Under the pieces are notes generated by a model, which was not told the DNA's origin, did not search any database, and worked only from the letters and a program-made list of their open reading frames with translations. From Spongiibacter thalassae (GTDB lineage Bacteria; Pseudomonadota; Gammaproteobacteria; Pseudomonadales; Spongiibacteraceae), in the NCBI RefSeq assembly GCF_012272835.1, contig NZ_JAAWWK010000002.1:339451-403450 (forward strand): 64,000 nucleotides of DNA, read 5' to 3'. Positions 903 through 47,943 of this stretch are shown here, piece by piece. Positions within the stretch are counted from its first letter, which is position 1; every line of letters starts with the position of its first letter. Both the position numbers and the translations under genes were made by a program.

Positions 903-914
903 GTTCATTTCCAG

Positions 915-935: not shown

Positions 936-987
936 TTCGTCATTAAAGTGAAATATAATTCGGCGGTCACAGGTAAATCGGTGACGT

Positions 988-4700: not shown

Positions 4701-4713
4701 GGGCGGATTGTAG

Positions 4714-6279
<1,566 letters not shown>

Positions 6280-33413: not shown

Positions 33414-33442
33414 ACCACCGCTCAGCCTCAGCCCCCTTTCGC

Positions 33443-33464
33443 AGCGGCCCATTGGGCCGCTTTT
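33443..33464 (+). terminator. rho-independent terminator after rpoS
   Basis: An 8-bp stem AGCGGCCC / GGGCCGCT with a three-base loop is followed by TTT. It abuts the stop codon of the convergent oxidoreductase gene. Confidence 0.8.
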
Positions 33465-34105
33465 CAGTTAAAAATCTCGTCGAGTGAAAACCGTTCTATC
33501 GCAGGCCCCTGCGCCAGGCTTCTGGCGATCATCTTGGTTGCAACCTCGCTGCCGCTAATCGGTCGGTAGCGTTTCAGCCCCGGTAGCTTGCACAGCGCGG
33601 GCATTAATTTACCCGCCAGGTACTCGCCGGTCCGGCGATGTTCCCGTTCACCCAGCAGCAGCGATGGTTGAAACAGGCTCAGGCGCTCAAAGCAGAGGGC
33701 CTTTACCCCATCTTCGAGTTGTCCCTTCATACGCAGGTAGGCGCTGCGACTGCGGCTGTCGGCCGACATCGACGACACCAGTAGCAGGTGCTTGACGCCT
33801 CGGGCCTTGGCCAGGGTCGCAGCGTGCAGTGGGTAGTCCACATCGACTTTGTATTGTGCTGCCAGAGAGCCCGCCTGCTTACGTGTGGTCCCCATACAGC
33901 AAAACAGATAGTCGCCGCTAAAGGCATCGGCGACCGTGTCGAGCTGGTCAAAGTCCACTACGATATTGTGTACGCGGGGTGTCGACGAGATCGGGCGGCG
34001 GGTGATGGCCGTGATTCGAGTAAAAGCACTGTTGCTGGCAAGTTGGCTGAGCAGTGCGCTACCGATCAATCCGGTAGCGCCAATGACGATGGCGTGGCGT
34101 TCCAT
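33464..34105 (-). CDS. NAD(P)H-binding oxidoreductase (atypical SDR, HTATIP2-like)
   Basis: A 213-residue Rossmann-fold protein starting with the dinucleotide-binding motif AIVIGATGLIGSALL. It continues DYLFCCMGTTRKQAG, LLLVSSMSADSRSRSAYLRMKGQLE and SLFQPSLLLGEREHRR, which match the small NAD(P)-dependent epimerase/HTATIP2 group. The usual YxxxK is replaced by Y-L-R-M-K-G, also typical of that group. Substrate unknown. It is convergent with rpoS and reads away from the mdh terminator. Confidence 0.85.
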   Translation of the reverse strand: MERHAIVIGATGLIGSALLSQLASNSAFTRITAITRRPISSTPRVHNIVVDFDQLDTVADAFSGDYLFCCMGTTRKQAGSLAAQYKVDVDYPLHAATLAKARGVKHLLLVSSMSADSRSRSAYLRMKGQLEDGVKALCFERLSLFQPSLLLGEREHRRTGEYLAGKLMPALCKLPGLKRYRPISGSEVATKMIARSLAQGPAIERFSLDEIFN

Positions 34106-34186
34106 ATTCTTCCGCTTGTTGTTCGACTTAGGGGTGTTGATTGGGAGGGCTGGCTAGGTACATGACAGCCCAGGGGCGGCCAGACG

Positions 34187-34214
34187 AAAAAAGGCGACCC
34201 GTAGGTCGCCTTTT
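34187..34214 (-). terminator. terminator after mdh (also symmetric on the plus strand)
   Basis: The 7-bp stem GGCGACC / GGTCGCC with a four-base loop is flanked by six A on the left and four T on the right, so the minus-strand transcript from mdh gets a U-run. Confidence 0.88.
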
Positions 34215-34252
34215 CAGCAAGCAGCGCGGGCTTGCTTATCGTACCGGGTTGC

Positions 34253-35233
34253 TTAGGGCAGCAGGTGCTTCACACCGTCACGCTCTTCGGCAAGTTCCTG
34301 CTCGGTGGCTTGCATTTTCGCGCGGCTGAAGTCGTTGACCTCAACGCCTTGTACAATTTCCCACTCGCCGTCTTTGCAGCGGCAGGGGAAGGAGTAAATC
34401 AGGCCTTCCTGAATGCCGTAGCTGCCGTCGCTGTAAACGCCCATGGAAACCCAGTCGTCACCGTCTGTGCCCAGAGCCCAGCTGCGCATATGGTCGATGG
34501 CCGCGTTGGCTGCAGAGGCTGCAGAGGAGGCGCCGCGAGCTTTGATAATTGCCGCGCCGCGCTGCTGAACAGTCGGAATAAAGTCGTTTTCCAGCCATTC
34601 CTGATCTACCAGGTCAGCGGCAGTCTGGCCGGCAACCTTGGCGTTGAACAGGTCCGGGTACTGGGTCGCAGAGTGGTTGCCCCAGATGGTCATATTGGTT
34701 ACGTCATTGACGGTCTTGCCGGTTTTCTGGGCAATCTGTGTCATCGCGCGGTTGTGGTCCAGGCGAGTCATGGCCGTGAAGTTACGCGGGCTGATTGACG
34801 GCGCGTTGCGCTGGGTAATCAGTGCGTTGGTGTTGGCGGGGTTGCCGACAACCAAAACCTTGATGTTTTTGCTGGCATTCTCGTCAATGGCTTTGCCTTG
34901 TACCGAGAAGATTGCCGCGTTGGCTTCCAGCAGGTCTTTACGCTCCATGCCGGGGCCGCGTGGGCGGGCACCGACCAGCAGGGCGTAGTCAGTGTCCTTA
35001 AAGCCGACGTTGGGGTCGTCAGTGCAAATGACGTCAGCCAGCAGGGGGAATGCGCAATCTTCCAGCTCCATTTTTACGCCTTGCAGGGCGTCCAGTGCGG
35101 GGGTAATGTCCAGCAGCTGCAGGATGACTGGCTGGTCTTCGCCCAGCATGGCGCCGGAGGCGACGCGGAAAAGCAGTGCATAGCCGATCTGGCCTGCTGC
35201 ACCGGTAACGGTGACTCGAACTGGTTGTTTCAT
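34253..35233 (-). CDS. mdh: malate dehydrogenase
   Basis: TCA-cycle enzyme converting malate and oxaloacetate with NAD. The 326-residue protein starts [20 protein letters not shown] at 35233, with AAGGGA upstream; the frame is open to 35317 without a second start signal. The catalytic region has [39 protein letters not shown] and [12 protein letters not shown] with the proton-relay His. This is the cytosolic-type Mdh common in non-enteric proteobacteria, not the E. coli type. It stands alone with its own terminator. Confidence 0.96.
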
Positions 35234-35480
35234 GGAGCGGTCCCTTTCTGGTGATTGATCTGGTCTAAAACCGGTTTTGAGCGGGTGCGACCGGACGTGG
35301 ATTACACAGTCCGGCATGCACCCGTGCCGGGGTCTGGCCGTGTATGACTACACCTCGTGCCAGCTAATTTTGGCGCCGTAATGATAGTCATCTCGCCTGA
35401 GGAATACCAGCGAGACGCCGTTTTTCGATGGATTTCCTTGTAATTTAGGTGTCTGAGTGGCTGATATTTAGGCAACTCTA

Positions 35481-35486
35481 TATAAT
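35481..35486 (+). promoter_or_regulatory. -10 element for ttcA
   Basis: A perfect TATAAT lies 41 bases before the ttcA ATG in the 293-base divergent gap between mdh and ttcA. The base run at the -35 distance is poor. The same gap holds a TAATGATAGTCAT sequence (35379-35391) that only weakly resembles a Fur box. Confidence 0.5.
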
Positions 35487-35526
35487 GCGGCCTCGATTTT
35501 TTGCTCCAGACCCCGATAGGCCTGCT

Positions 35527-36435
35527 ATGTCCTTAACCCTTGATATGCCGCAAATCTCCAAGCTGGAATTCAACAAGCTGCAAAAGCGCTTACGTCGCCA
35601 TACGGGACAGGCCATTGAGGACTACCGCATGATCGAGGAAGGCGACCGGGTTATGGTGTGCCTGTCCGGCGGCAAGGACAGCTATGCCATGCTGGACATT
35701 CTGATGAACCTGCAAAAAAGCGCGCCGGTGAAATTTGAGCTGGTTGCGGTGAATATGGATCAGAAGCAGCCGGGTTTTCCGGAGCATATTCTGCCCGAGT
35801 ACCTCGACCAGTTGGGCATCGAGTATTACATTGTCAACAAGGACACCTACTCCATTGTTAAAGAAAAGGTGCCTGAAGGGAAAACGACCTGCGGGCTGTG
35901 TTCGCGTTTGCGCCGTGGCACCCTGTACGGCTTTGCCGAGGATATCGGGGCGAACAAAATAGCCCTGGGTCACCACAAGGATGACATCGTACAGACGCTG
36001 TTCCTCAATATGTTCTACGGTTCCCGAATGGCTGCCATGCCGCCAAAATTGCTGTCGGACGACAAGCGCAATGTAATTATTCGACCCTTGGCATACTGCC
36101 GCGAGGCCGATATCGAAAAGTTTGCGGCGTATAAAGAGTTTCCCATTATTCCCTGCAACCTGTGCGGCTCGCAGGAAAATTTGCAGCGGCAGAATATCCG
36201 CAAAATGCTGTTGGATTGGGAGAAGCAGGACGGTAGTCGTATCGAGAAAATATTCTCCTCCATGCAGAATATAGCGCCCTCGCAAATGGCTGACACCACG
36301 CTGTTTAATTTTACCGACCTGCAGATAGACCGCAGCGGTGAGCGTGCGGCCTACCCCTTCGACGCCAGCCAGAGCGTTCAGGGTGGCGGTATCGCGACGG
36401 ATGTCACGCCGGTACCCTTTATCGAACTGCGCTAG
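35527..36435 (+). CDS. ttcA: tRNA 2-thiocytidine(32) synthetase
   Basis: Thiolates cytidine 32 of certain tRNAs. The 302-residue PP-loop protein has [17 protein letters not shown] (ATP-binding) and two iron-sulfur CXXC motifs, [12 protein letters not shown] and [32 protein letters not shown] matches the family. ATG 35527 gives the expected N-terminus ([19 protein letters not shown]). The frame opens at 35449 but those residues are not conserved in TtcA. The sigma-54-type promoter of the switch cluster starts 38 bases after its stop. Confidence 0.95.
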
Positions 36436-36472
36436 TCCTGTCTGCAACTTCCTCCGCGCGCCAGCGTGTCGC

Positions 36473-36488
36473 TGGCTTGATTCCTGCT
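36473..36488 (+). promoter_or_regulatory. sigma-54 type promoter for the switch cluster
   Basis: TGGCTTG-N4-CTGCT has the GG (36474-36475) and GC (36486-36487) of an RpoN promoter at the exact spacing and matches nine of twelve fixed positions. Transcription would start near 36499, leaving a leader of about 160 bases that contains two FleQ-like boxes. Confidence 0.5.
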
Positions 36489-36556
36489 ACAGCCAGAATA
36501 ACCCCCAACTGTCGAGGCGTATTCGTCGCCTTGTAGGTGGGGTAGTTCGGTTTTGT

Positions 36557-36570
36557 GTCAAAATAATGAC
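36557..36570. promoter_or_regulatory. FleQ-like box 1
   Basis: GTCAAAATAATGAC is a 14-base inverted repeat with GTCA / TGAC arms and an AT-only centre. It has the length and arms of the FleQ site known from Pseudomonas (GTCAnTAAATTGAC). It lies about 58 bases past the predicted start of transcription; leader-located FleQ sites are known for some Pseudomonas flagellar promoters. Confidence 0.6.
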
Positions 36571-36595
36571 GATTGATGGTGTGTTTGTCGCGGCT

Positions 36596-36609
36596 GTCAA
36601 AAAAATGAC
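36596..36609. promoter_or_regulatory. FleQ-like box 2
   Basis: GTCAAAAAAATGAC has the same arms and length as box 1, starting 39 bases after it. The pair sits between the sigma-54-type promoter and the ATG of the FliG-like gene. Confidence 0.6.
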
Positions 36610-36658
36610 GTCGCAGCTGCGGGCGGGTGCCTGTGGGTACCCCTGTCGGGAATAGTGA

Positions 36659-37990
36659 ATGGCGCTTTTTAAAAGTGGGAATTACGGTCCGTCCAGATTG
36701 TTGCTGTTTAGTCAGTTAGCGGTTGTGCTGCTGCTATTGCTGGCGATGTCGGCGCAGTTGTGGTTGAGCTGGCCGCTTCTTGCAGTGGCCCTGGTCAGCG
36801 CAGGGCTAGTGCTGTTGCTCGCGGTTATCGCGGGTCAGGCGGCGCCGGCCAGATTCGCTGAATCGCGCCCCGGCCCGACGGCAAACAGCTCTGCTTATGC
36901 GCTGTTGTCCAAGGCGCTGCGGCGGGCGGCTGCCGACGAGCCAGTAAGGGTGGCGGCAGTGCTCAGCCATTGGTTGCGGGACGAGGCTTTGGAGCCGACG
37001 GCAGAAAGTATTGAGCTGGAGCTGGCTCCCGAAGATCAAGTGGCAGCAGTGTTGATGCTGCTGGAAAAAGCCGATGCGGCCCGGGTTTTGCGGGAGCTAT
37101 CGCCGACCGAAATCCAGAGGGTCGCCCAGGCTATGGCGGGCCTGGAGGCGCCGTCAGCGCCGCAGATGGCTGAGCTTTTGCAGCGCTTCAGCGACGACGT
37201 TACCCACTTCTCAGCGATTAAGTCCGGTGTGACCGAAGACGTTTGTGGCCTGCTGGAGCAGGCGCTGGGTCCGGAAAAGGCGCGGCTGATTAACGACCAA
37301 CTGGCGGTGAGCGGTCAATCCCGGCAGCTCGGCAAATTAAAATGGCTTGATGCAAGTGTGATTGCAGCGATGTTGCATCGAGAGCACCCGCAAATACAGG
37401 CAGTGTTGATTGCCAGTCTGGCGCCAAAGCAGGCGAGTGACGTGCTGTTGGCGCTGCCAGAGGAGCGGCGCTTGGACCTGTTGAGCCGTATGTCAGCGCT
37501 GGAAACCCTGTCATCCGCCGCTCTCCAGGAGCTGGATTGGCTGGTGGAGGATTACCTGAATAACGCGGGTCGAGGTATGGGTCGTGCCCTCACCGGAGAG
37601 GCTATTGCAGCGTCCTTGCTGAATGAGCTCGATGTTGCTACCGAGGCTGAACTGCTCAACGGTTTGCGGCGAATGCGTCCCGGCAGTGCTGAAAGCGTGG
37701 AAGACCTGATGTTTGGTTTCGAACAACTCGAACGGCTCAGTGATGCCGACCTGGATCTGTTGCTCAAACAGTTGAATCCCGCAATGGTCAGGATTGCCCT
37801 GCGCGGCGCACCGAGAAACCTCGCGCGGAGGGTTGTTGCACTGCGTCCGGAGGTTGGCCGAGACAGCGACGACACTCGGGTTACCCAGGCCGAGGTTCGA
37901 GTGGCGAGAAATGAGATTGTCACCGTGGCTAAACGCATGGCGGCGGTAGGGGAGGTTGTGCTGGATGCGCGCAAGCTCGATGTTTTCTAA
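36659..37990 (+). CDS. membrane-anchored FliG with a FliF-tail-like segment
   Basis: A 443-residue homologue of the flagellar switch protein FliG (normally about 330-340). Residues 1-60 form a membrane hairpin: helices at about 13-33 and 38-59 joined by LSWP, so both ends face the cytoplasm. Residues about 85-110 (RRAAADEPVRVAAVLSHWLRDE) match the C-terminal FliG-binding tail of FliF, which in enterics reads DNDPRVVALVIRQWM. A FliG N-domain follows at 122-215 (VLRELSPTEIQRVAQAMAGL), then the middle domain with the EHPQ motif at 242-245, and the C-domain at about 325-443 (MFGFEQLERL, ALRGA, and the final RNEIVTVAKRMAAVGEVVLD). The charged torque helix is altered: DDR of enterics becomes SDA. 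First gene of the cluster. Read as a natural FliF-tail-FliG fusion; the FliG domain itself is certain. Confidence 0.88.
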   Translation: MALFKSGNYGPSRLLLFSQLAVVLLLLLAMSAQLWLSWPLLAVALVSAGLVLLLAVIAGQAAPARFAESRPGPTANSSAYALLSKALRRAAADEPVRVAAVLSHWLRDEALEPTAESIELELAPEDQVAAVLMLLEKADAARVLRELSPTEIQRVAQAMAGLEAPSAPQMAELLQRFSDDVTHFSAIKSGVTEDVCGLLEQALGPEKARLINDQLAVSGQSRQLGKLKWLDASVIAAMLHREHPQIQAVLIASLAPKQASDVLLALPEERRLDLLSRMSALETLSSAALQELDWLVEDYLNNAGRGMGRALTGEAIAASLLNELDVATEAELLNGLRRMRPGSAESVEDLMFGFEQLERLSDADLDLLLKQLNPAMVRIALRGAPRNLARRVVALRPEVGRDSDDTRVTQAEVRVARNEIVTVAKRMAAVGEVVLDARKLDVF

Positions 37991-38132
37991 GGTGAAAAAA
38001 TCGGCTCGGGAGAGTGTGAGGTTTTTCTGTTCTGAGGGCTAAAAACGGTTATGCTAAGTGGTGTTCCTGCGCGGTGTGTTTTTTTACTCGGCGTCGATAT
38101 ATGGCTCAGGCATGACTCTACAGGGAAGAATT

Positions 38133-38510
38133 ATGAACGCTATTGATGGCTCAGTATTGGAGGAGTTGCTCCAGGTGATGGGCGAGGATCTCGCCGGTCT
38201 GGTAGTGGCTTTTGAAAAGGATTCGCTGCAGCGTCTGTCGCTGATTGAAGCGGCTGCCGCGCGGGGAGAGGCTGACACGGTGCGCAGCTTGGCCCACACC
38301 TTGAAGGGCGGTGCACTGGGCATGGGGGCAAACAGCTTTGCCCGCTATTGTCGAGGGATTGAGTTGTGTGGGCGCGAAGCGGCATTGGCCAATGTCGACA
38401 CCGAGCTGGCCAATGCGCGGCGCAGCTTGCGCGAGGCGCTGTCAGCGATAAATGGCTGGTTGTCAGTGCAGGGTTGTCAAAAAAATGACAGCCTGAGGTT
38501 CTCTAAGTAA
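38133..38510 (+). CDS. Hpt phosphotransfer domain protein
   Basis: A 125-residue stand-alone histidine phosphotransfer protein. The motif RSLAHTLKGGALGMGA carries the phospho-accepting His55 and the flanking Lys-Gly. The rest is the four-helix bundle and no other domain is present. AGGGAAG before ATG 38133 sets the start; the frame upstream (from 38058) lacks such a site. It follows the FliG-like gene by 142 bases. A third FleQ-like box lies in its last codons. It probably relays phosphate between a kinase elsewhere and a receiver, perhaps the CheY in this cluster. Confidence 0.88.
   Translation: MNAIDGSVLEELLQVMGEDLAGLVVAFEKDSLQRLSLIEAAAARGEADTVRSLAHTLKGGALGMGANSFARYCRGIELCGREAALANVDTELANARRSLREALSAINGWLSVQGCQKNDSLRFSK
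38476..38489. promoter_or_regulatory. FleQ-like box 3
   Basis: GTCAAAAAAATGAC is identical to box 2 and is located in the 3' end of the Hpt gene. It lies about 53 bases upstream of the -24 of the second sigma-54-type promoter, a normal enhancer distance. Confidence 0.6.
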
Positions 38511-38541
38511 TTGATACTAATAATAAACATTGCCGGCCGGT

Positions 38542-38557
38542 TGGTGTGATTATTGCT
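38542..38557 (+). promoter_or_regulatory. sigma-54 type promoter for fliM
   Basis: TGGTGTG-N4-TTGCT matches nine of the twelve fixed RpoN positions, including GG at 38543-38544, GC at 38555-38556 and TTGCT complete. The start would be near 38567, about 93 bases before the fliM ATG. Confidence 0.6.
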
Positions 38558-38659
38558 GTAACAGCAGGTAGTCAGCGCAAAATCAGGATAGTTTCACCAT
38601 GGCGAGTAAGTGTATTGAAGGCCCGGCGAGGGCGGTTGTGATAATGCCGGGGCGGGGCA

Positions 38660-39622
38660 ATGACTAACCTGTTGTCACAGGCTGAAGTCGATGCGCTGCT
38701 GGCGGCGGTGCAGGACGATGTGCCGCTGACGCCCTCAGCGGCAAGGCCGACGACTCCGACGAGCGCGAAATTCGACCTGGCCAGTCGCCGGCAGGTGAAA
38801 TCGCGGCGGCTGCCGGGCCTCGAGCATTTGTGCAAGCGCTTTTCAGAGCATTTCCGCTACAGCCTGTCGGAGGTGTTGACCCAGGATATTGATGTGGGCT
38901 TGCTGGAGCTGCAGTTTCTGCCTTATGCCGAATACCTGCACTCGTTATATTTGCCAACCAGCCTCAATATGATGCGCATGGAGCCCTTGCAAGGGCGGGC
39001 GATGATGGTCTTCGATGCCAGGCTGGTATTCCGGCTGGTGGAAATTTTCTTTGGCGGAACCACCGTCCAGGGCGCGCCCGATGGGCGTGATTTCAGCCCG
39101 GCAGAACGGCGCTTGCTGGGCAAATTGCTCAGTCGTGCTCACGCCGACATCGAAGAGAGTTGGCGGCCGGTGCTTGAGCTGCAATGCCAGCCGCTGGGCA
39201 CCGAGGTGAATCCGTCGATGGCAAATATTGTTGGTGCCGCAGACAGCGTGGTGGTCTGCCGCTTTCAGGTCGATGCTGAAGGCGGCGGCGGCGGTGAGTT
39301 CCATATCTGTTTTCCATTGGCCATGCTGGAGCCTCTGCGTGAAGCGCTGTCGCGCAGTGATGCCGCTGAGCGCCGTTCACCTGACCCATTATGGGAGGAA
39401 GCCATGCGCCGAGCTGTGCTGGATACCTGTTTGCCAACCCGATGCCGTTTGGCGGAGAAAACCATGAGTTTGCGCGAAATAGCCGGATTGCAGGTCGGCG
39501 ATGTGATCGCTATGGGCCGCAGCGACCAGGTTGAAATTCATACTGAGGGGCAGCCGCTGTTGCGGGCCAGAATCGACCCCACCCGCGACGATTTGACCCT
39601 GGTGATCACCGGGCGTGCCTGA
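38660..39622 (+). CDS. fliM: flagellar motor switch protein FliM
   Basis: Middle ring of the flagellar C-ring and docking site for phospho-CheY. The 320 residues (E. coli 334) open with LLSQAEVDALLAA, the CheY-binding peptide (consensus LSQxEIDALL). The CheC-like middle domain has RFSEHFRYSLSEVL, MVFDARLVFRLVEIFFGG and SPAERRLLGKLLSRA. The SpoA domain occupies about 240-318 (CRLAEKTMSLREIAGLQVGDVIAM). All parts needed to join FliG, FliN and CheY are therefore present. A second sigma-54-type promoter lies upstream. It is followed by fliN after 21 bases. Confidence 0.93.
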   Translation: MTNLLSQAEVDALLAAVQDDVPLTPSAARPTTPTSAKFDLASRRQVKSRRLPGLEHLCKRFSEHFRYSLSEVLTQDIDVGLLELQFLPYAEYLHSLYLPTSLNMMRMEPLQGRAMMVFDARLVFRLVEIFFGGTTVQGAPDGRDFSPAERRLLGKLLSRAHADIEESWRPVLELQCQPLGTEVNPSMANIVGAADSVVVCRFQVDAEGGGGGEFHICFPLAMLEPLREALSRSDAAERRSPDPLWEEAMRRAVLDTCLPTRCRLAEKTMSLREIAGLQVGDVIAMGRSDQVEIHTEGQPLLRARIDPTRDDLTLVITGRA

Positions 39623-39643
39623 GTAGAGGCAACAGGAGAGAAG

Positions 39644-40030
39644 ATGAGTAATTCAGACGACCTTCGGCGCGAGCGGCAGGCCCTGCGCGAAGAAATAGAG
39701 TCCGCCGAAGCGAGTTTGTTTGGCGGAACCTCCGGGCAGCAGGCGCGCTTGCGAGACCGCAGCCCCTCCGCTCCGGACCTCGATATGGTGCTGGATATTC
39801 CGGTAAGGGTGACCCTTGAGGTCGGTGGCACCAATATGCCCATACGGGATTTGCTGCAATTGCAGCAGGGTGCGATTGTCGAGTTGGAGCGTCACGCGGG
39901 GGAGCCTCTGGACGTGCTGGTAAACGGTGCGCTCATCGCTCGTGGCGAAGTGGTAGTGGTTGAAGACAAGTTGGGCATTCGTCTCACCGAAGTGGTCAGC
40001 GCAAGCGAGCGTTTGCAGTCGTTGCGTTGA
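39644..40030 (+). CDS. fliN: flagellar motor switch protein FliN
   Basis: Base of the C-ring. The 128-residue protein (E. coli 137) has a variable helical N-terminus and a SpoA domain at about 46-128. LDIPVRVTLEVGGTNMPIRD, LLQLQQGAIVEL and NGALIARGEVVVVEDKLGIR lie very close to enteric FliN (the same register with few changes). It is thus a true flagellar FliN rather than a distant SpoA protein. AGGAGAG precedes ATG 39644. Confidence 0.94.
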   Translation: MSNSDDLRRERQALREEIESAEASLFGGTSGQQARLRDRSPSAPDLDMVLDIPVRVTLEVGGTNMPIRDLLQLQQGAIVELERHAGEPLDVLVNGALIARGEVVVVEDKLGIRLTEVVSASERLQSLR

Positions 40031-40058
40031 GTCACCCGCGCCCACACAAGGAGTGGAT

Positions 40059-40604
40059 ATGAAGCGGCTGGTGTACAAGGTGGAGGATGTCGCAACTCTT
40101 AAAGAAGTGGGGGCGATGGTCAACCAGCCCCATTTGCTGGGCTGGCGTATCTCGGTGGTTAGCGACAGACCGGCGGATGTCGCGGCCGCCAATATGCGCA
40201 ATATGTCGCTGTTGCGGCGCAGCGATGTGCTTTCCTTCGGCTGGCGTGGGGGCTTATGGGGCGGCGTATCAAGCGTGTTGGCGATATTGTTGATTGGCGG
40301 CCTTTACGGCAACGGTGACGGTTTTGCTCAACAAGTACTGCTGGTGGCATTGCCGCTGTGCTGTGTTTTTTTTGGTGCCTGGGAGGGGGGCTTTCTTGGC
40401 TTGACGAAGGTTAATCCGGGGTTGCGGCCCTTTATGGCGCAGGTCGAGGCAGGAGCGTTTATTGTGATTGTCGATGTGAGGCCGGAGGACGAACGTCTGG
40501 TTAAGAAACTGATGGGCCTCTGCGGGTCGGAACAGCTCGCCGAGTATTGCAGTCGAATATGGACGCTGCGCGGGCCGACCCGCCCCCGGCGAGGTGCGTC
40601 GTGA
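40059..40604 (+). CDS. membrane protein of unknown function in the switch operon
   Basis: A 181-residue protein with a small N-terminal domain (about 1-55, KRLVYKVEDVATLKEVGAM), two membrane helices at about 64-83 and 90-115 (glycine-rich, separated by a short GNGDG loop), and a C-terminal domain (VEAGAFIVIVDVRPEDERLVKKLM). The split domain around a glycine-rich hairpin resembles DUF1269-like stress proteins, but the match is weak and I give it no function. AAGGAG sets ATG 40059. Its TGA stop overlaps the GTG of fleN, so the two are translationally coupled. It is not part of known flagellar operons. Confidence 0.8.
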   Translation: MKRLVYKVEDVATLKEVGAMVNQPHLLGWRISVVSDRPADVAAANMRNMSLLRRSDVLSFGWRGGLWGGVSSVLAILLIGGLYGNGDGFAQQVLLVALPLCCVFFGAWEGGFLGLTKVNPGLRPFMAQVEAGAFIVIVDVRPEDERLVKKLMGLCGSEQLAEYCSRIWTLRGPTRPRRGAS

Positions 40605-41443
40605 AGCCGGTTCAGGTAGTCGCGGTCACCGGGGGGAAGGGGGGCGTTGGCAAAACCAATATCGCGATTAACCTGGCGGTGGCATTAGCCCAATCCGGTC
40701 AGCGTGCCGCCGTACTCGATGCTGATTTCAGTCTGGCCAATGTCGATGTGCTGCTGGGATTACATGCGGACAAAACCATCGAGCATGTGTTTCGCGGTGA
40801 GTGCAGTCTTAGCGACATTATTCTGACCGGCCCCGCAGGGATACGCATTATCCCTGCATCCTCGGGGGCGCGGGCGTTGACCAGGCTTACCAGTCTGGAG
40901 CAGGCGGGGCTGATTCGCGCGTTCAGCGACCTCGGTGAGCAGCTCGATGTACTGGTGGTCGATACTGCCGCGGGGATTTCCGACGGGGTGCTGACTTTTG
41001 TCAATGCCGCCCGTGAGGTACTATTGGTGCTGTGGAACGAGCCTTCTTCGTTCACCGATGTTTACGCGTTGATCAAGCTACTGAATCGCGATTTTGGCCG
41101 ACGGCGGTTTAGAATAATGACCAATATGCTTGACAGCGATGCCGAGGGGCGAGAGTTGTTTCGGCGACTTGTCGTTGTCTGTGAGCAATTTCTTGACGTC
41201 AGCCTGCTGTACGCCGGAGCGATTCCCTTTGACCCGGCGCTGGCACGCGCGGTGAAAAAACAGGTGCCAGTCATTTTGTCGGAGCCCAGTGCGCCGTCGT
41301 CGCGGGCAATTCGTTTGCTCGCACAGGAGGTGGCGTCGTGGCCTCTGTCCGGCAAGGCAACAGGCAGCCTGGAGTTTTTTGTCGAATCGTTGTTTAGTGT
41401 GCCGGCCGCGCCGCAGTGTAAGGAGCGACAAGTCGATGAGTAA
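40601..41443 (+). CDS. fleN: FleN/FlhG-type MinD-like ATPase
   Basis: ParA/MinD-family ATPase that sets flagellar number and, in polar flagellates, binds FliM/FliN and antagonises FleQ. The 280 residues have the deviant Walker A GGKGGVGKTNIAINLA at 11-26, LDADFSLANVDVLLGL, DTAAGISDGVLTFV and the family-specific C-terminus WPLSGKATGSLEFFVESLF, very close to Pseudomonas FleN (WPLPANPRGHLEFFVERLV). GTG 40601 overlaps the preceding stop (GTGA). In Pseudomonas fleN is followed by fliA; here cheY follows directly. Confidence 0.93.
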   Translation: MKPVQVVAVTGGKGGVGKTNIAINLAVALAQSGQRAAVLDADFSLANVDVLLGLHADKTIEHVFRGECSLSDIILTGPAGIRIIPASSGARALTRLTSLEQAGLIRAFSDLGEQLDVLVVDTAAGISDGVLTFVNAAREVLLVLWNEPSSFTDVYALIKLLNRDFGRRRFRIMTNMLDSDAEGRELFRRLVVVCEQFLDVSLLYAGAIPFDPALARAVKKQVPVILSEPSAPSSRAIRLLAQEVASWPLSGKATGSLEFFVESLFSVPAAPQCKERQVDE

Positions 41444-41921
41444 GGACAAGCCGGAACTCTCGGTAGAGTCGTCGCCAGACCCCTTTGGCAACTATGATGA
41501 GCTTCCCACTTTTCACAGTGCCGGCCCGAGCGGTGACAAGCTGGATATGCGCATTCTTCTGGTTGAGGATTTTGCGACGATACGACGAATTATTCGCAAC
41601 CTGCTCGCCGATTTGGGGTATACCAATGTCAGTGAGGCCGAAGATGGTATGGCGGCCCTGCCCATGTTGCATAACCAGCGCTTTGATTTGCTGATTACCG
41701 ATATCGTGATGCCGGAAATGTCGGGGATGGAGCTGCTGAAGGCGGTGCGCGCCGATCATCAGCTTGAGAATTTGCCGGTATTGATGCTGACCTCCGACGC
41801 CAATCGCGACAAAATTATCGAGGCAGCCAAGGCCGGCGTCAGCGCCTATATTGTCAAACCCTTCACGGCAGCGATGCTGGAAAGCAAGATCAAGCAGATT
41901 TTTCAGCGCTTGAATAGTTAA
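41436..41921 (+). CDS. cheY: CheY-like response regulator
   Basis: A single-domain receiver of 161 residues with a 37-residue N-terminal extension not found in ordinary CheY (about 125). The domain begins MRILLVEDFATIRRIIRNLL, the chemotaxis-type CheY sequence. Phosphorylation site Asp89 is in LLITDIVMPEMSG, with acidic residues Glu44 and Asp45, Thr119 in VLMLTSDAN and Lys141 in YIVKPF, so all switch residues are present. AAGGAG precedes the ATG, which overlaps the fleN end by eight bases. It would be expected to bind the FliM N-terminal peptide when phosphorylated. Confidence 0.92.
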   Translation: MSKDKPELSVESSPDPFGNYDELPTFHSAGPSGDKLDMRILLVEDFATIRRIIRNLLADLGYTNVSEAEDGMAALPMLHNQRFDLLITDIVMPEMSGMELLKAVRADHQLENLPVLMLTSDANRDKIIEAAKAGVSAYIVKPFTAAMLESKIKQIFQRLNS

Positions 41922-41942
41922 AAATTCCTTATTTTTCAGTTT

Positions 41943-41960
41943 TTATGCGCGTGTGCATAA
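41943..41960. repeat. 18-base palindrome in the cheY to cheA-like gap
   Basis: TTATGC and GCATAA flank a six-base centre (GCGTGT). It lies 21 bases past the cheY stop, in a 199-base gap. Having no T-run after it, it looks more like a protein-binding site than a terminator. A second, weaker inverted repeat (CCCAGCC / GGCTGGG) is at 42000-42032. No clear promoter was found in the gap. Confidence 0.5.
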
Positions 41961-42120
41961 TTTCGCTGCTCTGTCCCCCGGATTTTGTTCGCTTTGTGAC
42001 CCAGCCATTACTGCCCAACTCATGGGGCTGGGATAATTGCCGGTGGCTGTTCCGGCTTTCCGTATTCGTGTCTGTTGCGGCGGGATATCGCCGTAGTTTC
42101 ACGAGGCAAAGAGAGTGGAT

Positions 42121-42924
42121 GTGAGCGAACACGAAGGCATTCTGGCAATTTTCTTATCCGAGGCTGAGGGCATCGTCCACAGCCTGTTTGCGCAGCTGGA
42201 AGAGTTGCAGTATGGCTATGACGGCCAGCGCATTCTGGATGATATTCACCGGGGCTTCCATACCTTGTATGGCGGCTCTGCGGTGTTGCAGCTGGAGGAA
42301 TTGGCGGAGTGCGCGCAGCTCGCCGAGCGGGTGCTTGATCGCCTGCGTATGCGGCGTATTTCTCTGAGTCCCAGTCTGGTGTCCTTGATTATTGGCGCAA
42401 CCAGCGCCATCGAGGCGATGTTGTCGAGATTGATTGAACATCAGACTGTGCGCCCGATACCGGAAGAGCTGAAGACGCGTTTGTTGCGTGCCGCCGGCCA
42501 GGAGAGAGAGTCTGTCGCCCCGCCGCGGCCACCGGTGGTCGACTGTGATCCGCTCAGCCATTTCTTTTCACCGAGCCAGCCGCCCAGCGAACAGAGGCTT
42601 AAGCCTGCTGGCGCAACCTTTGGCAAGGGCGCGTTGGAGCAGCTCTTGACGGGCTATGCCGCCACATCTATAGCCGCAAAAACAGCGTCACCCTCGGCGT
42701 CGGCTGCCCGAGTGAACGATGCCGTCGCAGTGCGGGAGCGTGACGGGGAGCCGGCCACTGATGCGCCGCATATCATTGACCTGATCCGTGAGCTGGCCTG
42801 GGTCAGAAATCGTTTGATGGGATTCAAGCGGGAAGAGGGCGGCGACAAACTGAATAAATCCCTTGCCTATCTTGATCTGGTCACCCGCGACATGGAGCAA
42901 TGGCTCGAGCGGAACCGCCTCTAA
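42121..42924 (+). CDS. kinase-less CheA-like phosphotransfer protein
   Basis: A 267-residue protein corresponding to the first part of CheA only. Residues 1-125 are the P1 (Hpt) domain: IHRGFHTLYGGSAVLQLEEL keeps the phospho-accepting His47 but has Tyr where CheA has Lys (IFRGFHTVKGGAGF in Pseudomonas). A disordered Pro/Ala-rich linker follows. Residues about 222-267 (DLIRELAWVRNRLMGF, KSLAYLDLVTRDMEQWL) match the beginning of the P3 dimerisation helices. The ATPase and CheW-like domains are absent and the gene ends cleanly at TAA 42922-42924. GTG 42121 is preferred to GTG 42115 because of GAGAG upstream. Either a relic of cheA or a retained phosphate relay. ccmA follows 185 bases later. Confidence 0.8.
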   Translation: MSEHEGILAIFLSEAEGIVHSLFAQLEELQYGYDGQRILDDIHRGFHTLYGGSAVLQLEELAECAQLAERVLDRLRMRRISLSPSLVSLIIGATSAIEAMLSRLIEHQTVRPIPEELKTRLLRAAGQERESVAPPRPPVVDCDPLSHFFSPSQPPSEQRLKPAGATFGKGALEQLLTGYAATSIAAKTASPSASAARVNDAVAVRERDGEPATDAPHIIDLIRELAWVRNRLMGFKREEGGDKLNKSLAYLDLVTRDMEQWLERNRL

Positions 42925-43109
42925 CGCCAAGTTACCACGTGCAGTCCTCTGTTCTTATTCCCCGCAAACCACACCATTAACACTGGCGGCGCCGCATCGG
43001 GGCAAAAGCTGGCGGCTGCGGGCAGCGAAGCCGCCGCTATTTCGTATATACTTGGCCGCGTTTTAGGCGCACTGATATCGGGTGCGCAGCTTTGAACGGA
43101 GAGGTGCGG

Positions 43110-43742
43110 TTGGCTACGGCGTTGGAAATTCGGCATTTGTACAGTGAACGCGACGAGCGTGTGCTGTTTGCCGACTTGTCTATCAATCTGCGCCCGGGTG
43201 AAATACTCCAGCTTGCAGGGCCCAATGGCAGTGGCAAGACCAGTTTGTTGCGTATTCTCGCGGGGCTGTCGTCCCGCTATGAGGGCGATATTGACTGGTG
43301 TGGTCAACCCCTGCGCCACCAGTGGGTGGATTATCGCCAGCGTATGCTGTATTTCAGCCATGGCAGCGGCATCAAACCCCAGTTGACCGCCGTGGAAAAC
43401 CTGCGTTGGTCCTGCGCGATGCGTGGACAGGCAGTGACTGACGGAGAAATTTACGCTGCCCTGGACAGAGTGGGCCTCGGCGGCTTTGGCCAACAGGCTT
43501 GCTATACCCTGTCTGCGGGGCAGCAAAGGCGGGTGAACCTGGCCAGACTATTTTGCATCGACGCCTGTTTCTGGTTGTTGGATGAACCCTTTACCGCTAT
43601 CGATCTGGCCGGTGTCGCCGAAATTGAACACTGGATTGCCGAATTTGCCGAGGGTGGCGGTATGGTGATGTTGACGACCCACCACCCACTGGCGATTGAT
43701 CGTCCGGTGATTCGGGTTGACCTCGGCGGTGGCATATCATGA
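43110..43742 (+). CDS. ccmA: haem exporter ATPase CcmA
   Basis: ATPase of the CcmABCD complex that releases holo-CcmE during cytochrome c maturation. The 210-residue ABC protein has Walker A GPNGSGKTSLLR, the signature LSAGQQRRVNLARL, Walker B CFWLLDEPFTAID and the switch TTHHPL. GGAGAGG 5 bases ahead supports the TTG at 43110; a TTG at 43092 would add six residues. First gene of a complete ccm operon. It overlaps ccmB by four bases. Confidence 0.94.
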   Translation: MATALEIRHLYSERDERVLFADLSINLRPGEILQLAGPNGSGKTSLLRILAGLSSRYEGDIDWCGQPLRHQWVDYRQRMLYFSHGSGIKPQLTAVENLRWSCAMRGQAVTDGEIYAALDRVGLGGFGQQACYTLSAGQQRRVNLARLFCIDACFWLLDEPFTAIDLAGVAEIEHWIAEFAEGGGMVMLTTHHPLAIDRPVIRVDLGGGIS

Positions 43743-44425
43743 AGCGTATGGGCGTGTCCGCGGTGTTTGTTGCGATTCTACGCCGGGATCTGCGCAGCGC
43801 CCTGCGCAGTGGCAGCGAATGGGCCAACCCCTTATTGTTTTTCGCCATTGTCTGTACCCTGTTTCCCCTTGGCATCGGGCCGGATGCCAGACAGCTGGCG
43901 CTATTGGCACCAGGCATTCTCTGGGTAGTGGCGCTGTTGGCGTCGATGATGGCCACCGACAGCCTGTTTCGCAGCGACTACGATGACGGGACTCTGGAGC
44001 AGATGCTGCTTAGCCCGATGCCAATGTATCCTTTGGTACTGGCGAAAATTCTGGCCCACTGGCTGACCAGTGGTCTGCCGTTGTGCCTGATGTCGCCCCT
44101 GTTGGCCGTCATCTTGCAAATGCCAATGTCAGGGGTTCCGGTGCTGGTCGTCAGCTTGCTGATTGGTAGCGCTATTTTGAGTTTCATTGGTGCCATTGGC
44201 GCGGCGTTGACGGTGGGCTTGCGCAAGGGGGGGCTGTTGCTGTCGCTGATCGTGCTGCCCCTGTATATTCCCGTACTCATCTTTGGCAGTGCGGCGGTCA
44301 AATCGGCCATCGACGGCGTGGTGTATTTACCTACGCTGGCGTTACTGGGGGCCTTGTTTATGCTCGCCGTCGCCCTGGCGCCATTGGCGGTGGCCGGGGC
44401 ACTGCGGATCAGTGTAGACCAATAA
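43739..44425 (+). CDS. ccmB: haem exporter membrane protein CcmB
   Basis: Membrane partner of CcmA. The 228 residues form six hydrophobic helices. Family segments such as LLFFAIVCTLFPLGIGPD, GTLEQMLLSPMP and LPLYIPVLIFGSAAV are present. The ATG overlaps the ccmA stop (ATGA). Confidence 0.95.
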   Translation: MKRMGVSAVFVAILRRDLRSALRSGSEWANPLLFFAIVCTLFPLGIGPDARQLALLAPGILWVVALLASMMATDSLFRSDYDDGTLEQMLLSPMPMYPLVLAKILAHWLTSGLPLCLMSPLLAVILQMPMSGVPVLVVSLLIGSAILSFIGAIGAALTVGLRKGGLLLSLIVLPLYIPVLIFGSAAVKSAIDGVVYLPTLALLGALFMLAVALAPLAVAGALRISVDQ

Positions 44426-44503
44426 TGTCGAGCAATAATGTGGGCAGGTAGTCTGGTTCGAATGGAACGAGTGTTCCCGAATGTGGTGATATAGGACAAT
44501 AGA

Positions 44504-45277
44504 GTGGCAAATTGGGCTTGGTTTCATAAATGGGGTTCTCCGCGCTGGTTTTACCAATTCAGCGGACGGCTGTTGCCGTGGCTGGCGGTGCCCGGCCTGT
44601 TGCTGTTTATCGGCGGCTGTGTGTGGGGGCTGTTGTTTGTGCCCCCCGATTTCAAACAGGGCAACAGCTTCCGTATTATTTATGTGCATGTTCCCGCCGC
44701 CGCCGTAGCGATGGGGGCCTATATGTTTATGGCGACCGCCGCGGCGGTACACCTGATCTGGCGAATGAAGCTGGCGGCCATGGTGATGAAGGTGGTCGCG
44801 CCGATAGGTGCCTCACTCACCTTTTTGTCGCTGGTCACCGGTGCCGTGTGGGGTAAGCCCACCTGGGGAACCTGGTGGGTGTGGGATGCGCGCATTACTT
44901 CGGTGTTGATCCTGTTCTTTCTCTATTTGGGGATTATCGCCCTGCACCAGGCCTTTGAAAATCGTGAGGCCGCCGCCAAGGCCTGCGCCGTGCTGGCGAT
45001 CGTCGGCGCAGTGAATATCCCCATCATCTATTGGTCGGTGGAGTGGTGGTACAGCTTGCATCAACCCGCCAGCATAAAGTTTATTGGTGAGTCGACCATT
45101 CACCCGACGATGCTGCGGCCCTTAATGGCTACGCTGTCCGGCATGTATTTGTTGTTTGGTTGGCTGGTGCTGCTGTATACCCGAGCTGAAATTATCGATC
45201 GCGAGCGCAACACCCGTTGGTTACAGGATATGTTGTTGACTGATCGCCCCGCCGATTCAGCAGAAAGGGGTGCGTAA
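44504..45277 (+). CDS. ccmC: haem delivery protein CcmC
   Basis: Transfers haem to CcmE at the periplasmic face. The 257-residue protein has six membrane helices, the tryptophan-rich WWVWDARITS motif (within TWGTWWVWD) and the flanking periplasmic histidines in YVHVPAA and ESTIHPTML. GTG 44504 has AGGA upstream. A 78-base gap separates it from ccmB, the largest inside the operon. Confidence 0.95.
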   Translation: MANWAWFHKWGSPRWFYQFSGRLLPWLAVPGLLLFIGGCVWGLLFVPPDFKQGNSFRIIYVHVPAAAVAMGAYMFMATAAAVHLIWRMKLAAMVMKVVAPIGASLTFLSLVTGAVWGKPTWGTWWVWDARITSVLILFFLYLGIIALHQAFENREAAAKACAVLAIVGAVNIPIIYWSVEWWYSLHQPASIKFIGESTIHPTMLRPLMATLSGMYLLFGWLVLLYTRAEIIDRERNTRWLQDMLLTDRPADSAERGA

Positions 45278-45468
45278 TGTATTTTGAAAGTGTTGAAGCG
45301 CTGCTGTACATGGATGGCCACGGCAGCTATGTCTGGTTTTGTTTTGCGCTGACCTTCGCGGTACTGGTCGGGCTGATTGTCCAGGCGCGGCGTCGGAATA
45401 GAACCGCGCGCCAACTACTGGCGTCGGCTGCCCGTCGCCGCCGCGCAGAGCAGCGTTCACCCCAGTGA
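45277..45468 (+). CDS. ccmD: haem exporter protein CcmD
   Basis: Small membrane subunit needed to release holo-CcmE. The 63 residues have one helix (about 19-36) preceded by [11 protein letters not shown] and followed by a strongly basic tail ([15 protein letters not shown]), the standard CcmD layout. Its ATG overlaps the ccmC stop by one base (TAATG). Confidence 0.92.
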
Positions 45469-45487
45469 TAATTGGATAGAGGTAATA

Positions 45488-45958
45488 ATGGCAATGCACC
45501 CCCTGCGCAAGCAGCGACTCGCCATCGTCGTGTTTATTTTATTGGCCGCCGCCGCGGCAGCGGCCTTTCTGGGCTATGCCCTGAGGGAAAACATCAACCT
45601 GTTTTACCCCCCTGCGGATATCGCAGCGGGCAAGGCGCCCCTGGACCGCAAAATTCGCGCGGGCGGCATGGTGGCAGAGGGCAGTGTTCAGCGTGCGACC
45701 GACAGCCTTAAGGTGCGCTTCGTCGTCACCGACTACAGCGCCAGCGTACCGGTGCAGTACGAGGGGATTCTTCCGGATCTCTTTGCCGAGGGCGAAGGTG
45801 TGGTGGTGACGGGGCAGCTTGCCGCCGATGGCGTATTTTACGCCGATGATGTGCTGGCTAAACACGATGAAAACTATATGCCCCCCGAGGTCAGCGACGC
45901 CCTGGAAAAATCGGGTAAATCGGCCCCCTATTCCGGACAGGAGAGCACAGGCTTGTGA
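45488..45958 (+). CDS. ccmE: haem chaperone CcmE
   Basis: Periplasmic haem chaperone that binds haem covalently. The 156-residue protein has a membrane anchor (about 8-29), an OB-fold domain, and the haem-binding HxxxY motif in [12 protein letters not shown] near the C-terminus. AGAGGT before ATG 45488 sets the start. It overlaps ccmF by GTGA. Confidence 0.95.
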
Positions 45959-47943
45959 TAGTTGAACTGGGGCATTTTGCGTTAATTCTCGGCCTGTGTT
46001 TTTCCCTCGCACTGGCGGTGCTGCCGATGTATGGCGTCGTGCGCGGCGACGTGCGCTGTATGAATGCCGGTGGCCCGCTGGCGGTGGCGCAGTGCCTGTT
46101 TGTTACCCTCGCAACGGCGGCGTTGCTCTACGCCTTTCTCAGCGACGATTTCTCGGTAGATATCGTTGCCGCCCAGTCCAATACCCGTTTGCCCACTCCC
46201 TATAAATTCAGCGCACTGTGGGGCGGTCACGAGGGCTCGCTGCTGCTTTGGCTGGAGATTCTGTGCCTGTGGACATTGGCGGTGGCGATATTCTCCCGGC
46301 AATTACCCCGGGACATCCTCGCCCGGGTGCTGTCGGTAATGGGCATGATTGCGGTGGGCTTTTTCAGCTTTTCGCTGTTCACTTCCAACCCTTTTGCGCG
46401 ACATCTGCACAATATTCCCGCCGATGGTCAGGATTTGAATCCACTGCTGCAAGACCCGGGAATGGTGATTCATCCGCCGATGCTCTATGTCGGCTATGTC
46501 GGGTTTTCCGTGGCCTTTGCCTTTGCCATTGCCGCGCTGTTAAGTGGCCGCATGGACGCCAGCTGGGCGCGCTGGTCACGGCCCTGGACCAACGTCGCCT
46601 GGCTGTTTCTTACCGTGGGCATCACCCTTGGTAGCTGGTGGGCCTACTATGAGCTGGGTTGGGGTGGTTGGTGGTTCTGGGACCCGGTAGAAAACGCGTC
46701 CTTCCTGCCGTGGTTGGTGGGCACCGCACTGATCCATTCGCTCGCCGTCACCGAAAAACGCGGGGCATTCAAAAGCTGGACACTGCTGTTGGCGATTTTT
46801 GCCTTTTCACTGAGCCTGCTGGGAACCTTTTTGGTACGTTCGGGGGTGTTGACCTCGGTACACGCCTTTGCCGCCGACCCGACCCGGGGCATGTTTATTC
46901 TCGGCTTCCTGTTTATTGTGGTGGGCGGCTCACTGACCCTTTACGCCTTGAAAGCACCTGCTCAAGCCCGTAGTCATGGATTTGGCTTGCTGTCGCGGGA
47001 GGCGCTGTTGCTGGCCAATAACATCCTGCTGATTGTCGCAGCGATGACGGTATTGCTGGGCACCCTGTTTCCGCTGGTGATGGACTTTGCGGGCCTGGGT
47101 AAATACTCCGTCGGCCCTCCCTACTTCAATGCTGTGTTCGTGCCAATTTGCTGTGTGTTAGCGGTATTGATTGGCATTGGGCCAAGCACCCAATGGAAGC
47201 GCAGCAGTACGACGAGCTGGCTGCGGGCGATGGTGGTCGCCGCCATTGCGTCGTTTATTCTTTCGCTTATTCTGCCCACCCTGTTCGGCGGTGAGTTTTA
47301 CCTTGGTGCAACCCTAGGAGCTCTGCTGTTTTTCTGGATTGTGTGCAGTTCACTGGTCAGCGTGCGCCACAAGGTGCGCAATGCCTCGTCGCTGCTAACG
47401 GGCTTGAAGCGTCTGACGCCGTCCTATTACGGTATGTTGCTGGCCCATCTGGGCTTTGCCTGTGCGGTATTGGGTGTGGCGATGATCAGCAGCTTTCACG
47501 ACGAACGCGATTTGCGCATGACGGTGGGCGAGCGCGCTGAAAGCGCGTTTTCCTACGAAGTTCGCTTTGATGGCATAGAGGCGATCACCGGGGCAAATTA
47601 TCAAGGCCAGCGGGGCAATTTCAGCCTGTATAAAAACGGCGAGTATCTGCGTGACCTCCACCCGGAAAAGCGCCGTTATCATGCCCGTGCCAGCCAGGTG
47701 ATGACCGAGGCGGCGATCGACGCCGGACTGTTCCGCGATATCTATATTGCCCTCGGTGAGCCGGTTGGTGAGGATGCCTGGGCGGTGCGTATTCACGTAA
47801 AGCCCTTTGTGCGCTGGATCTGGTTGGGCGGCGTATTAATGGCACTGGGTGGATTGCTGGCGATTGGTGACAAACGCTACCGCAGCAGTGCAGGGCGGTC
47901 GCGGAGCGAGCTGCCCAAAGGGGAGAGCTATGCAAAGACTTAA
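45955..47943 (+). CDS. ccmF: cytochrome c haem lyase subunit CcmF
   Basis: Core of the haem ligation complex. The 662 residues contain about 15 membrane helices, the WWD motif [19 protein letters not shown], haem-ligand histidines in [11 protein letters not shown] and [12 protein letters not shown] [12 protein letters not shown], and a large C-terminal periplasmic segment. GTG 45955 overlaps the ccmE stop. It overlaps ccmG by 14 bases. Confidence 0.96.

Follow-up and report, generated by a model that had tools for sequence, protein, structure and literature searches.

A conserved stand-alone flagellar switch-and-signalling module, reduced and apparently repurposed, in Spongiibacter thalassae and its family

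Between ttcA and ccmA, the genome of Spongiibacter thalassae encodes a compact set of flagellar switch and chemotaxis homologues, comprising FliG, FliM, FliN, a FleN-type ATPase, CheY, two Hpt-domain proteins and a 183-aa membrane protein. We analyzed this module within a 64,000-nucleotide window (C6:339451-403450 of a 4.40 Mb genome in 13 contigs, 100% complete), and we denote its proteins by the suffix 2 and those of a separate flagellar cluster by the suffix 1. The module is conserved across the family and is an ancestral polar flagellum/chemotaxis cluster reduced in place beside ccmA, as gene order and sequence comparison indicate. Its FliM-FliG and CheY-binding motifs are retained, and the residues of FliG2 that would face a stator have changed. 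We consider it somewhat probable that the products form a torque-less ring gated by phospho-CheY, loaded by the FleN-type ATPase and used for signalling or scaffolding. The genes and flanks are as follows.

35449..36435, + strand: ttcA, the upstream flank outside the module and the upstream neighbour in 20/20 module loci.
36659..37990, + strand: FliG2, with Pfam FliG_N (1.3e-21), FliG_M (7.7e-21) and FliG_C (1.3e-10) and an N-terminal membrane hairpin plus FliF-type tail.
38058..38510, + strand: HptA, a single Hpt domain (Pfam Hpt, 3.5e-10).
38660..39622, + strand: FliM2 (NCBIfam TIGR01397, 234.5 bits, above the cut-off), with the N-terminal CheY/FlhG-binding peptide LSQAEVDALL.
39644..40030, + strand: FliN2 (NCBIfam TIGR02480, 110.5 bits, above the cut-off).
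~40053..40604, + strand: the 183-aa membrane protein, with two transmembrane (TM) helices splitting a predicted bab-bab domain.
~40559..41443, + strand: FleN2, a FleN/FlhG-type MinD-like ATPase with MinD/ParA matches in Pfam and NCBIfam.
41436..41921, + strand: CheY2, a response regulator whose best NCBIfam model is CheY (155.5 bits, below the cut-off of 189).
42115..42924, + strand: HptB, a kinase-less CheA with P1 and P3 only, related to CheA by BLAST and hhalign and seen by Pfam as Hpt only.
43092..45277, + strand: ccmABC, outside the module, a marker of the ancestral flagellar/chemotaxis locus; ccmA follows hptB in 20/20 loci.

All module genes lie on the + strand, bracketed by ttcA and ccmA, and fliM, fliN, the membrane gene, fleN and cheY are separated by gaps of ≤22 bp or overlap. 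Flagellar models are the best NCBIfam matches of the module FliM and FliN, and FliG2 scores 133 bits, below the NCBIfam FliG cut-off of 226.7. The true start of HptA is probably downstream of the first GTG (38058). Among the open reading frames (ORFs) of window positions 32442-47943, there is no filament, hook, rod, export or stator gene, and export gate, rod, hook, filament and stator genes are likewise absent between ttcA and ccmA in the window and in 19 other loci. An earlier sequence-only reading of this DNA had named FliG, FliM, FliN, FleN, CheY, an Hpt protein and a CheA fragment, all of which Pfam and NCBIfam recovered with the positions and strand it gave, and it had also noted that such motor and export genes are missing nearby. 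It overlooked the 183-aa two-helix membrane protein, the two TM helices of FliG2 and the FliF-type tail. A promoter and terminator scan returned no more matches than shuffled sequence.

Of 21 family genomes searched with FliM2, 20 contain the module; the exception is G294, a genome of 70% completeness without any FliM match. We compared 20 loci, 19 fetched plus the window. The genes fliG2, fliM2, fliN2, cheY2 and hptB are open frames in the same order, within the ttcA-ccmA interval, in all 20 genomes, which belong to two genera. This shared order, found in the survey of relatives that the sequence-only reading had proposed, argues that the module is more than a chance arrangement. In a sample of 293 genomes of the order, two FliG matches occurred in 13/13 family genomes. 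Follow-up outside the family covered only the 13 genomes with at least two FliG matches; upon a second search these contained flagellar-length second FliGs (four genomes, G094, G170, G266 and G271; 353-357 aa), fragments, a FliG fusion (five genomes) or a single match.

The core of the module is under strong purifying constraint, and the membrane part is looser. Nei-Gojobori dN/dS values from three species pairs are lowest for FliM2 (0.025-0.035), FleN2 (0.034-0.038) and FliN2 (0.047-0.056), followed by FliG2 (0.039-0.10), CheY2 (0.018-0.12) and HptA (0.013-0.19), with higher ranges for HptB (0.12-0.28) and the membrane protein (0.06-0.29).

The most pronounced change within this conserved set affects FliG2. 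Of the FliG residues, R281, D288 and D289 matter most for the stator (PMC6079164). These three columns are kept in 0/20 FliG2 proteins versus 46/46 other FliGs (own FliG1, 19 order loci and 26 named loci). The K264 column never contains Lys (Arg in 3/20), the R297 column contains Arg in 1/20, and 3-6 residues are deleted at the stator-contact region in 14/20. The EHPQ motif, which we take to be the FliM-binding site, is present in 20/20 FliG2 proteins, and the MFxF positions are kept in 18-19/20. Torque generation by FliG2 with an ordinary stator is thus unlikely, judging from the aligned sequences. The sequence-only reading had judged that the C-ring parts look functional, which agrees with the retained FliM/FliN/CheY side but not with the altered stator contacts of FliG.

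FliG2 also carries its own remnant of the MS-ring protein FliF. In the window, FliG2 is a natural fusion: a hairpin and FliG-binding tail occupy approximately residues 1-115, with TM helices at residues 14-32 and 40-58 followed by a FliF-type C-terminal tail, and FliG_N/M/C follow. In 12/20 genomes a separate gene encoding a 216-340 aa mini-FliF with two TM helices precedes fliG2; in three genomes (G192, G293 and G095) mini-FliF and FliG2 are one protein; and in four (window, G148, G063 and G212) the fusion contains two TM helices and the tail without RBM3. G272 retains the tail alone, without a TM helix, and its locus gave no match to the 183-aa membrane gene. The FliF tail is therefore in cis with FliG2 in 8/20 genomes and in the adjacent gene in 12/20. 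The tail of FliG2 aligns with the mini-FliF set, with R/A/V columns invariant in 16 rows.

By alignment, with one protein modelled, an RBM3-like domain is present in 15/20 genomes and absent from 5/20. In the FliM tree the five RBM3-less genomes cluster together with moderate support (92/85), which makes a single loss of RBM3 probable. Recognition of mini-FliF needed profile tests, Pfam alone being insufficient (FliF_C in 5/16 rows only, best 0.001). Against 14 flagellar FliFs, hhalign gave 95% with 10 rows (E 2.7e-8) and 97% with 16 rows (E 1.6e-10), the match spanning RBM3 without its long insertion, the second membrane helix and the C-terminal FliG-binding tail. We take the missing insertion for the collar, from its place in the alignment. 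An AlphaFold2 (AF2) model of the L078 mini-FliF from the 10-row alignment (pLDDT 72) has the order helix-aBBaB-helix-tail, and FliF MS- or S-ring entries take the first 16 places among its PDB matches (best E 7e-4, probability 1.00). The claim that no MS-ring gene is present is hence wrong for the family, given the RBM3-like mini-FliF of the 15 genomes; in the window itself, FliG2 retains the membrane hairpin and FliF tail.

The 183-aa membrane protein gene was found by BLAST in 18/20 module loci. Its AF2 model (pLDDT 88.7) predicts a bab-TM-TM-bab fold with no PDB match at E <= 0.001, the best being an Alternative Complex III subunit (0.022). Relatives occur in 77/369 genomes of the class, own genome included (second copy at G000 C12:148014-148472), and the family has no Pfam name. 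BLAST of 19 loci of these relatives with 1.5 kb flanks revealed no flagellar or module neighbour. The protein looks recruited from this widespread family.

The signalling side of the module is largely preserved. The S, Q, E, D, A, L and L positions of the CheY-binding peptide of FliM2, which the sequence-only reading had recognized in the window, are invariant in all 20 genomes. The phospho-Asp of CheY2 (Asp57) is present in 18/20, window included, and lost in G192 and G232. The phospho-His is kept in all 18 genomes that have HptA and in 19/20 HptB proteins. G192 lacks the HptB His as well as the CheY2 Asp, a joint loss expected of a coupled relay. FleN2 retains its catalytic Lys/Asp residues in 18/18. 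HptB matches the CheA of the relative G177 by BLAST at residues 9-136 (2.8e-18) and 308-357 (1.5e-6), and hhalign places its C-terminus on CheA P3 at 95%. The CheA fragment therefore consists of P1 and P3, without P2, the kinase domain P4 or P5, and two g2 HptB proteins contain P1 only. Pfam detected no P3 in 18 HptB rows, so pairwise and profile tests were needed. No CheA kinase with P4/P5 is encoded at the module.

Gene order in relatives points to the origin of the module. We picked 22 order relatives with one- or two-contig genomes and a listed FliG; 12 of them carry ccmB on the strand of fliG, 23-57 kb beyond it, and the other 10 do not. Two stretches, from G177 and G224, were read whole, with genes lacking a BLAST match named by eye; in a third relative, G094, ORF calling went astray and parts only were recognized. 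G177 and G224 have the order fliE-F-G-H-I-J-K-L-M-N-O-P-Q-R-flhB-flhA-flhF-fleN-fliA-cheY-cheZ-cheA-cheB-parA-like..., then ccmABC. The module is a collinear subset of this cluster, (fliF)-fliG-[hpt]-fliM-fliN-[membrane gene]-fleN-cheY-cheA'-ccmABC.

Sequence similarity is mostly in line with this order. FliM2 is 36-37% identical to the FliMs of G177/G224 versus 25% for FliM1, and CheY2 is 55-62% identical to their flagellar CheY. FleN2 (52-53%) and FleN1 (51-52%) are equally near their FleN, so that FleN does not discriminate module from flagellar cluster. In bit scores, the FliM and FliN of named gammaproteobacteria are closer to the module copies (median 234 bits for FliM2 vs 126 for FliM1; 118 for FliN2 vs 94 for FliN1). 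The opposite holds for FliG, with order FliGs nearer FliG1 than FliG2 (median 267 vs 167 bits), because FliG2 has changed most. A FliM2 profile also found at least 80 loci of other gammaproteobacteria among named genomes at 34-39% identity, taken for flagellar FliMs. In an 87-row FliM tree, the 20 module rows form one group (100/99) among gammaproteobacterial FliMs; the flagellar FliM1 branch measures 5.56, and G272 (2.47) and G192 (2.1) have very long FliM2 branches. The tree carries a warning of long-branch joins and its bootstrap had not settled, so the ancestry rests on synteny first. Recent gain by transfer is not favoured, given the ancestral position of the locus and the placement of FliM2 among gammaproteobacterial FliMs.

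The genome contains a second, flagellar set of these genes. FliG occurs twice and FliM/FliN-type domains four times, and a flagellar cluster with ORFs named by eye lies at C6:147786-186859, ~190 kb from the module. NCBIfam was applied to ten proteins of this cluster: FliF, FliG, FliN, FlhA, FlgE, FlhF and FliI pass a curated cut-off, the flagellin passes one model narrowly (333.1 vs 332) with its best model under cut-off, and the FleN-like protein is recognized as MinD-like only. FliM1 (C6:177144-178082; L005:17144-18082) scores 180.4 bits over its full length, below the cut-off of 219.6, and in 11 rows (own genome and 10 other family loci) its N-terminal peptide reads [IV]LDPEELEALM rather than LSQAEIDALL. 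At least one PomAB-like stator pair is encoded on C7, and the genome has eight MotA/ExbB-family stretches. A genome search for CheW-domain proteins returned two, one CheW-like and one a 1821-aa ChpA-like kinase, and no flagellar-type CheA despite the flagellar cluster. The ChpA-like kinase has pilT/pilU-like genes and a receptor as neighbours and belongs to a type IV pilus-type chemosensory cluster (C9:85552-94657; L241:7552-16657).

The sequence-only reading described a module without a flagellum, which is true only of this locus. It had also named, beforehand, a flagellum lacking its own fliG, fliM and fliN as the finding that would make the module an ordinary dispersed part; this was tested and not found. 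Because the flagellar cluster has its own FliF, FliG, FliM and FliN, the module is an additional switch, and a dispersed part of the flagellum is ruled out. The core of that reading holds: the module stands alone, is conserved and combines switch with signalling parts in a reduced and apparently repurposed form.

The comparisons above establish what the module consists of, its ancestry, its losses, its retained motifs and the selection on it; the ring itself, its gating and its output are predicted from sequence and single-chain models. Mini-FliF, or the remaining hairpin and tail, would anchor FliG2, and FliG2 would carry FliM2 and FliN2. The FleN-type ATPase would load FliM and FliN onto FliG as FlhG does in flagella, and the 183-aa membrane protein may be a later recruit. 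CheY2 may receive phosphoryl groups from HptA and HptB, supplied by kinases encoded elsewhere, and CheY2-P would bind the FliM2 peptide and change the state of the ring. With stator contacts, export gate, rod and filament all missing, neither rotation nor secretion is expected of the ring, and the change of state would itself be the output. This output might be sensed by FleN2, by the membrane protein or by another partner in the cytoplasm, making the ring a scaffold or signalling hub, probably at the cell pole. Since the periplasmic part is lost in five genomes and all TM helices in one, the useful side of the ring would be cytoplasmic. A more specific version, which we put forward tentatively, is a free-standing C ring that undergoes a cooperative two-state change without rotation, a phospho-CheY-gated cytoplasmic amplifier made by deleting the torque, export and kinase parts from an intact flagellar cluster.

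Several observations weigh against a torque-less signalling ring. Phosphorylation of CheY2 is uneven, with Asp57 lost in 2/20 and the second metal-binding acid being Asp in only 10/20, and hptA, the membrane gene and fleN2 were each not found in 2/20 genomes (found in 18/20). The fastest-evolving part is mini-FliF (dN/dS 0.20-0.33, two pairs), and support for its fold is modest: the model has a pTM of 0.40, a global TM-score of ~0.3 and three matches at E <= 0.001, and from rank 17 its PDB matches turn to unrelated OsmC/Ohr folds. The anchor is eroding, and the losses of RBM3 in 5/20 and of all TM helices (with the 183-aa protein) in G272 argue against a strict need for membrane anchoring. Lastly, the loss of stator residues is partly alignment-dependent owing to the 3-6-residue deletion in 14/20; a basic residue lies within three positions of the R281 column in 17/20 FliG2 proteins, and in 3/20 (window, G148 and G063) D288-D289 have an acidic pair no more than ~4 positions away. 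This dependence lowered our confidence in both the signalling ring and its amplifier version and raised that in an alternative stator, considered below.

The alternative that survives best, although we judge it unlikely, is that the module serves the cell's own flagellum: FliM2 and FliN2 would enter its C ring, or the module would buffer CheY-P or FleN, so that a flagellum with no chemotaxis kinase to itself would gain some control over direction or number. All 20 module genomes do have a second FliM (22-27% identity to FliM2), ten of which were placed in the tree and group with own flagellar FliM1. The divergence of FliM1, seen in its score, branch length and altered peptide, and the genome's missing flagellar-type CheA fit this idea. 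However, FliM1 and FliM2 are only ~24% identical, FliG2 with the changed stator-contact columns would probably stall the motor, and FliG2 should not need the flagellar FliF, as it has its own FliF tail in cis or in the adjacent gene.

Slow decay is less probable still. The proteins would then form no ring, acting singly in minor roles, or the locus would simply be drifting. The stepwise erosion of the FliF part, the loss of phospho-sites in some species and the very long FliM2 branches of G272 and G192 are what drift might leave behind. Such drift is hard to reconcile with dN/dS of 0.02-0.12 for FliG2, FliM2, FliN2, FleN2 and CheY2 in three species pairs, with fliG2, fliM2, fliN2, cheY2 and hptB frames open in 20/20, or with the retained FliM-FliG contact motif and CheY peptide.

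We hold it very unlikely that the module is a pole or division-site determinant, in which the ring with FleN2 would place FleN2 or mark the pole, as in the FlhG and C-ring system of Campylobacter. FleN2 is present in 18/20 genomes with intact catalytic residues, and MS/C-ring proteins of C. jejuni are reported to assist in positioning FlhG and in restraining polar division (PMC3228812; PMC6946799). The genome G272, which has FleN2 but no MinE match, could be used in its favour. Two g2 module genomes, though, lack both a MinE match and FleN2, and a regular MinE occurs in 17/21 family genomes, own included, where a Min substitute is unneeded; a role as Min substitute is accordingly not favoured.

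The least probable alternative is a module that is still a rotor, driven by an unrecognized stator (an ExbB-like pair, for instance) that engages FliG2 at a new surface or via shifted charged residues; the eight MotA/ExbB-family stretches, the basic residues near the R281 column (17/20), the acidic pair near D288-D289 (3/20) and a FliF-FliG fusion paired with MotAB in another family of the order leave it some room, against which stand the changed R281, D288 and D289 columns in 20/20, the deletion in 14/20, the absence of a nearby acidic pair in 17/20, the lack of any stator gene between ttcA and ccmA in 20/20 loci, and the loss of the periplasmic part in 5/20.

The closest known relative of the proposed signalling ring is the MS/C ring of polar gammaproteobacterial flagella, which shares homologous parts, gene order, the FliM-FliG motif, the CheY peptide and a FleN-type ATPase. 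In contrast to that ring, the module locus has no export gate, rod, hook or filament, its FliF is reduced to RBM3 or less where a flagellar rotor has a full RBM1-RBM2-RBM3 FliF, its FliG has changed stator-contact columns, and a flagellar cluster coexists elsewhere in the genome. Nor does it resemble a non-flagellar type III sorting platform (SctQ, export ATPase and export gate), as the locus contains no secretion genes.

Individual steps have published counterparts. RBM3 alone forms rings (PMC8786727), FlhG interacts with FliM through the FliM N-terminus (PMC12826062), and two-component kinases rely on the MS ring/rotor in V. cholerae and P. aeruginosa (PMC7064773). In C. jejuni, MS/C-ring proteins and the MinD-like FlhG share a non-motility role, acting together in division and in the polar placement of FlhG (PMC3228812; PMC6946799); that one C ring also drives the flagellum, whereas the module is a separate set in a family with MinE in 17/21 genomes. 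Engineered FliF-FliG rings likewise join FliF and FliG in one chain (PMC6079021), but the module fusion is natural and lacks RBM1/RBM2, and in the window also RBM3. Non-flagellated Lysobacter retained a partial flagellar set after losing the rest (PMC9927559); fliG and fliM were among the genes lost there, whereas the module kept the switch and its host has a flagellar cluster. The FliN homologue FssF of Caulobacter localizes in a C-ring-dependent manner and affects chemotaxis and adhesion (PMC11580411), but it is tied to a working flagellum, with adhesion affected via a stator-dependent pathway. Among the matches listed from open-licence PMC papers, with preprints and most subscription papers outside that scope, none described a C ring standing alone in this way.

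Among cooperative machines the flagellar switch is a textbook case, known from its place in a rotating motor. Here switch and motor appear to have been uncoupled: selection has maintained the ring contacts and the CheY site, and the parts that touch the export gate and rod (RBM1/RBM2/collar), the kinase and the usual stator-contact residues have gone. Should a ring assemble, it would be a minimal system for C-ring assembly and switching without torque, and the series from mini-FliF to fused hairpin to tail only would be a stepwise record of the dismantling and reuse of an organelle. A ring with a non-motor output would, if real, be a new kind of machine, although its parts are flagellar. The injectisome is a derived machine built from flagellar parts, and the module would add another.

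A separate arrangement was observed in another family of the order. Five genomes (G104, G132, G178, G199 and G259) have a FliG-like match in a 650-663-codon frame, and in three proteins read whole (643, 645 and 659 aa) the FliG part comes after a FliF/RBM3-like part and a membrane helix. Pfam recognizes FliF_C (3.9e-5), FliG_M (1.2e-13) and FliG_C (3.7e-19) in the G104 protein. MotA- and MotB-like genes directly follow the fusion in G104, G199, G259 and G132, the G132 frame containing one stop. The cassettes lie at L236:7711-11180 (-), L237:8376-11792 (+) and L239:8357-11820 (-), and the three 20-kb regions around them contain no fliM, fliN or cheY. This looks like a minimal rotor-plus-stator cassette, apparently reduced independently by shedding the switch and keeping rotor and stator, the mirror image of the module.

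Two minor features were also noted. Within the flagellar cluster, between FlgL-like and flagellin genes named by eye, C6:158678-161404 encodes a 908-aa protein with a repeat-like N-terminus, possibly a flagellin-modifying enzyme. Just upstream of the module, three family genomes from two genera have a ~5.7-5.8 kb stretch in common at 97.5-98% identity (L072, reverse strand, 378-6212; L087:1-5816; L089:1-5732), which includes a cytochrome P450-like gene named by eye. It stops inside ttcA, and the module has no such match; the stretch has the look of recently transferred or replaced DNA, or of contamination.

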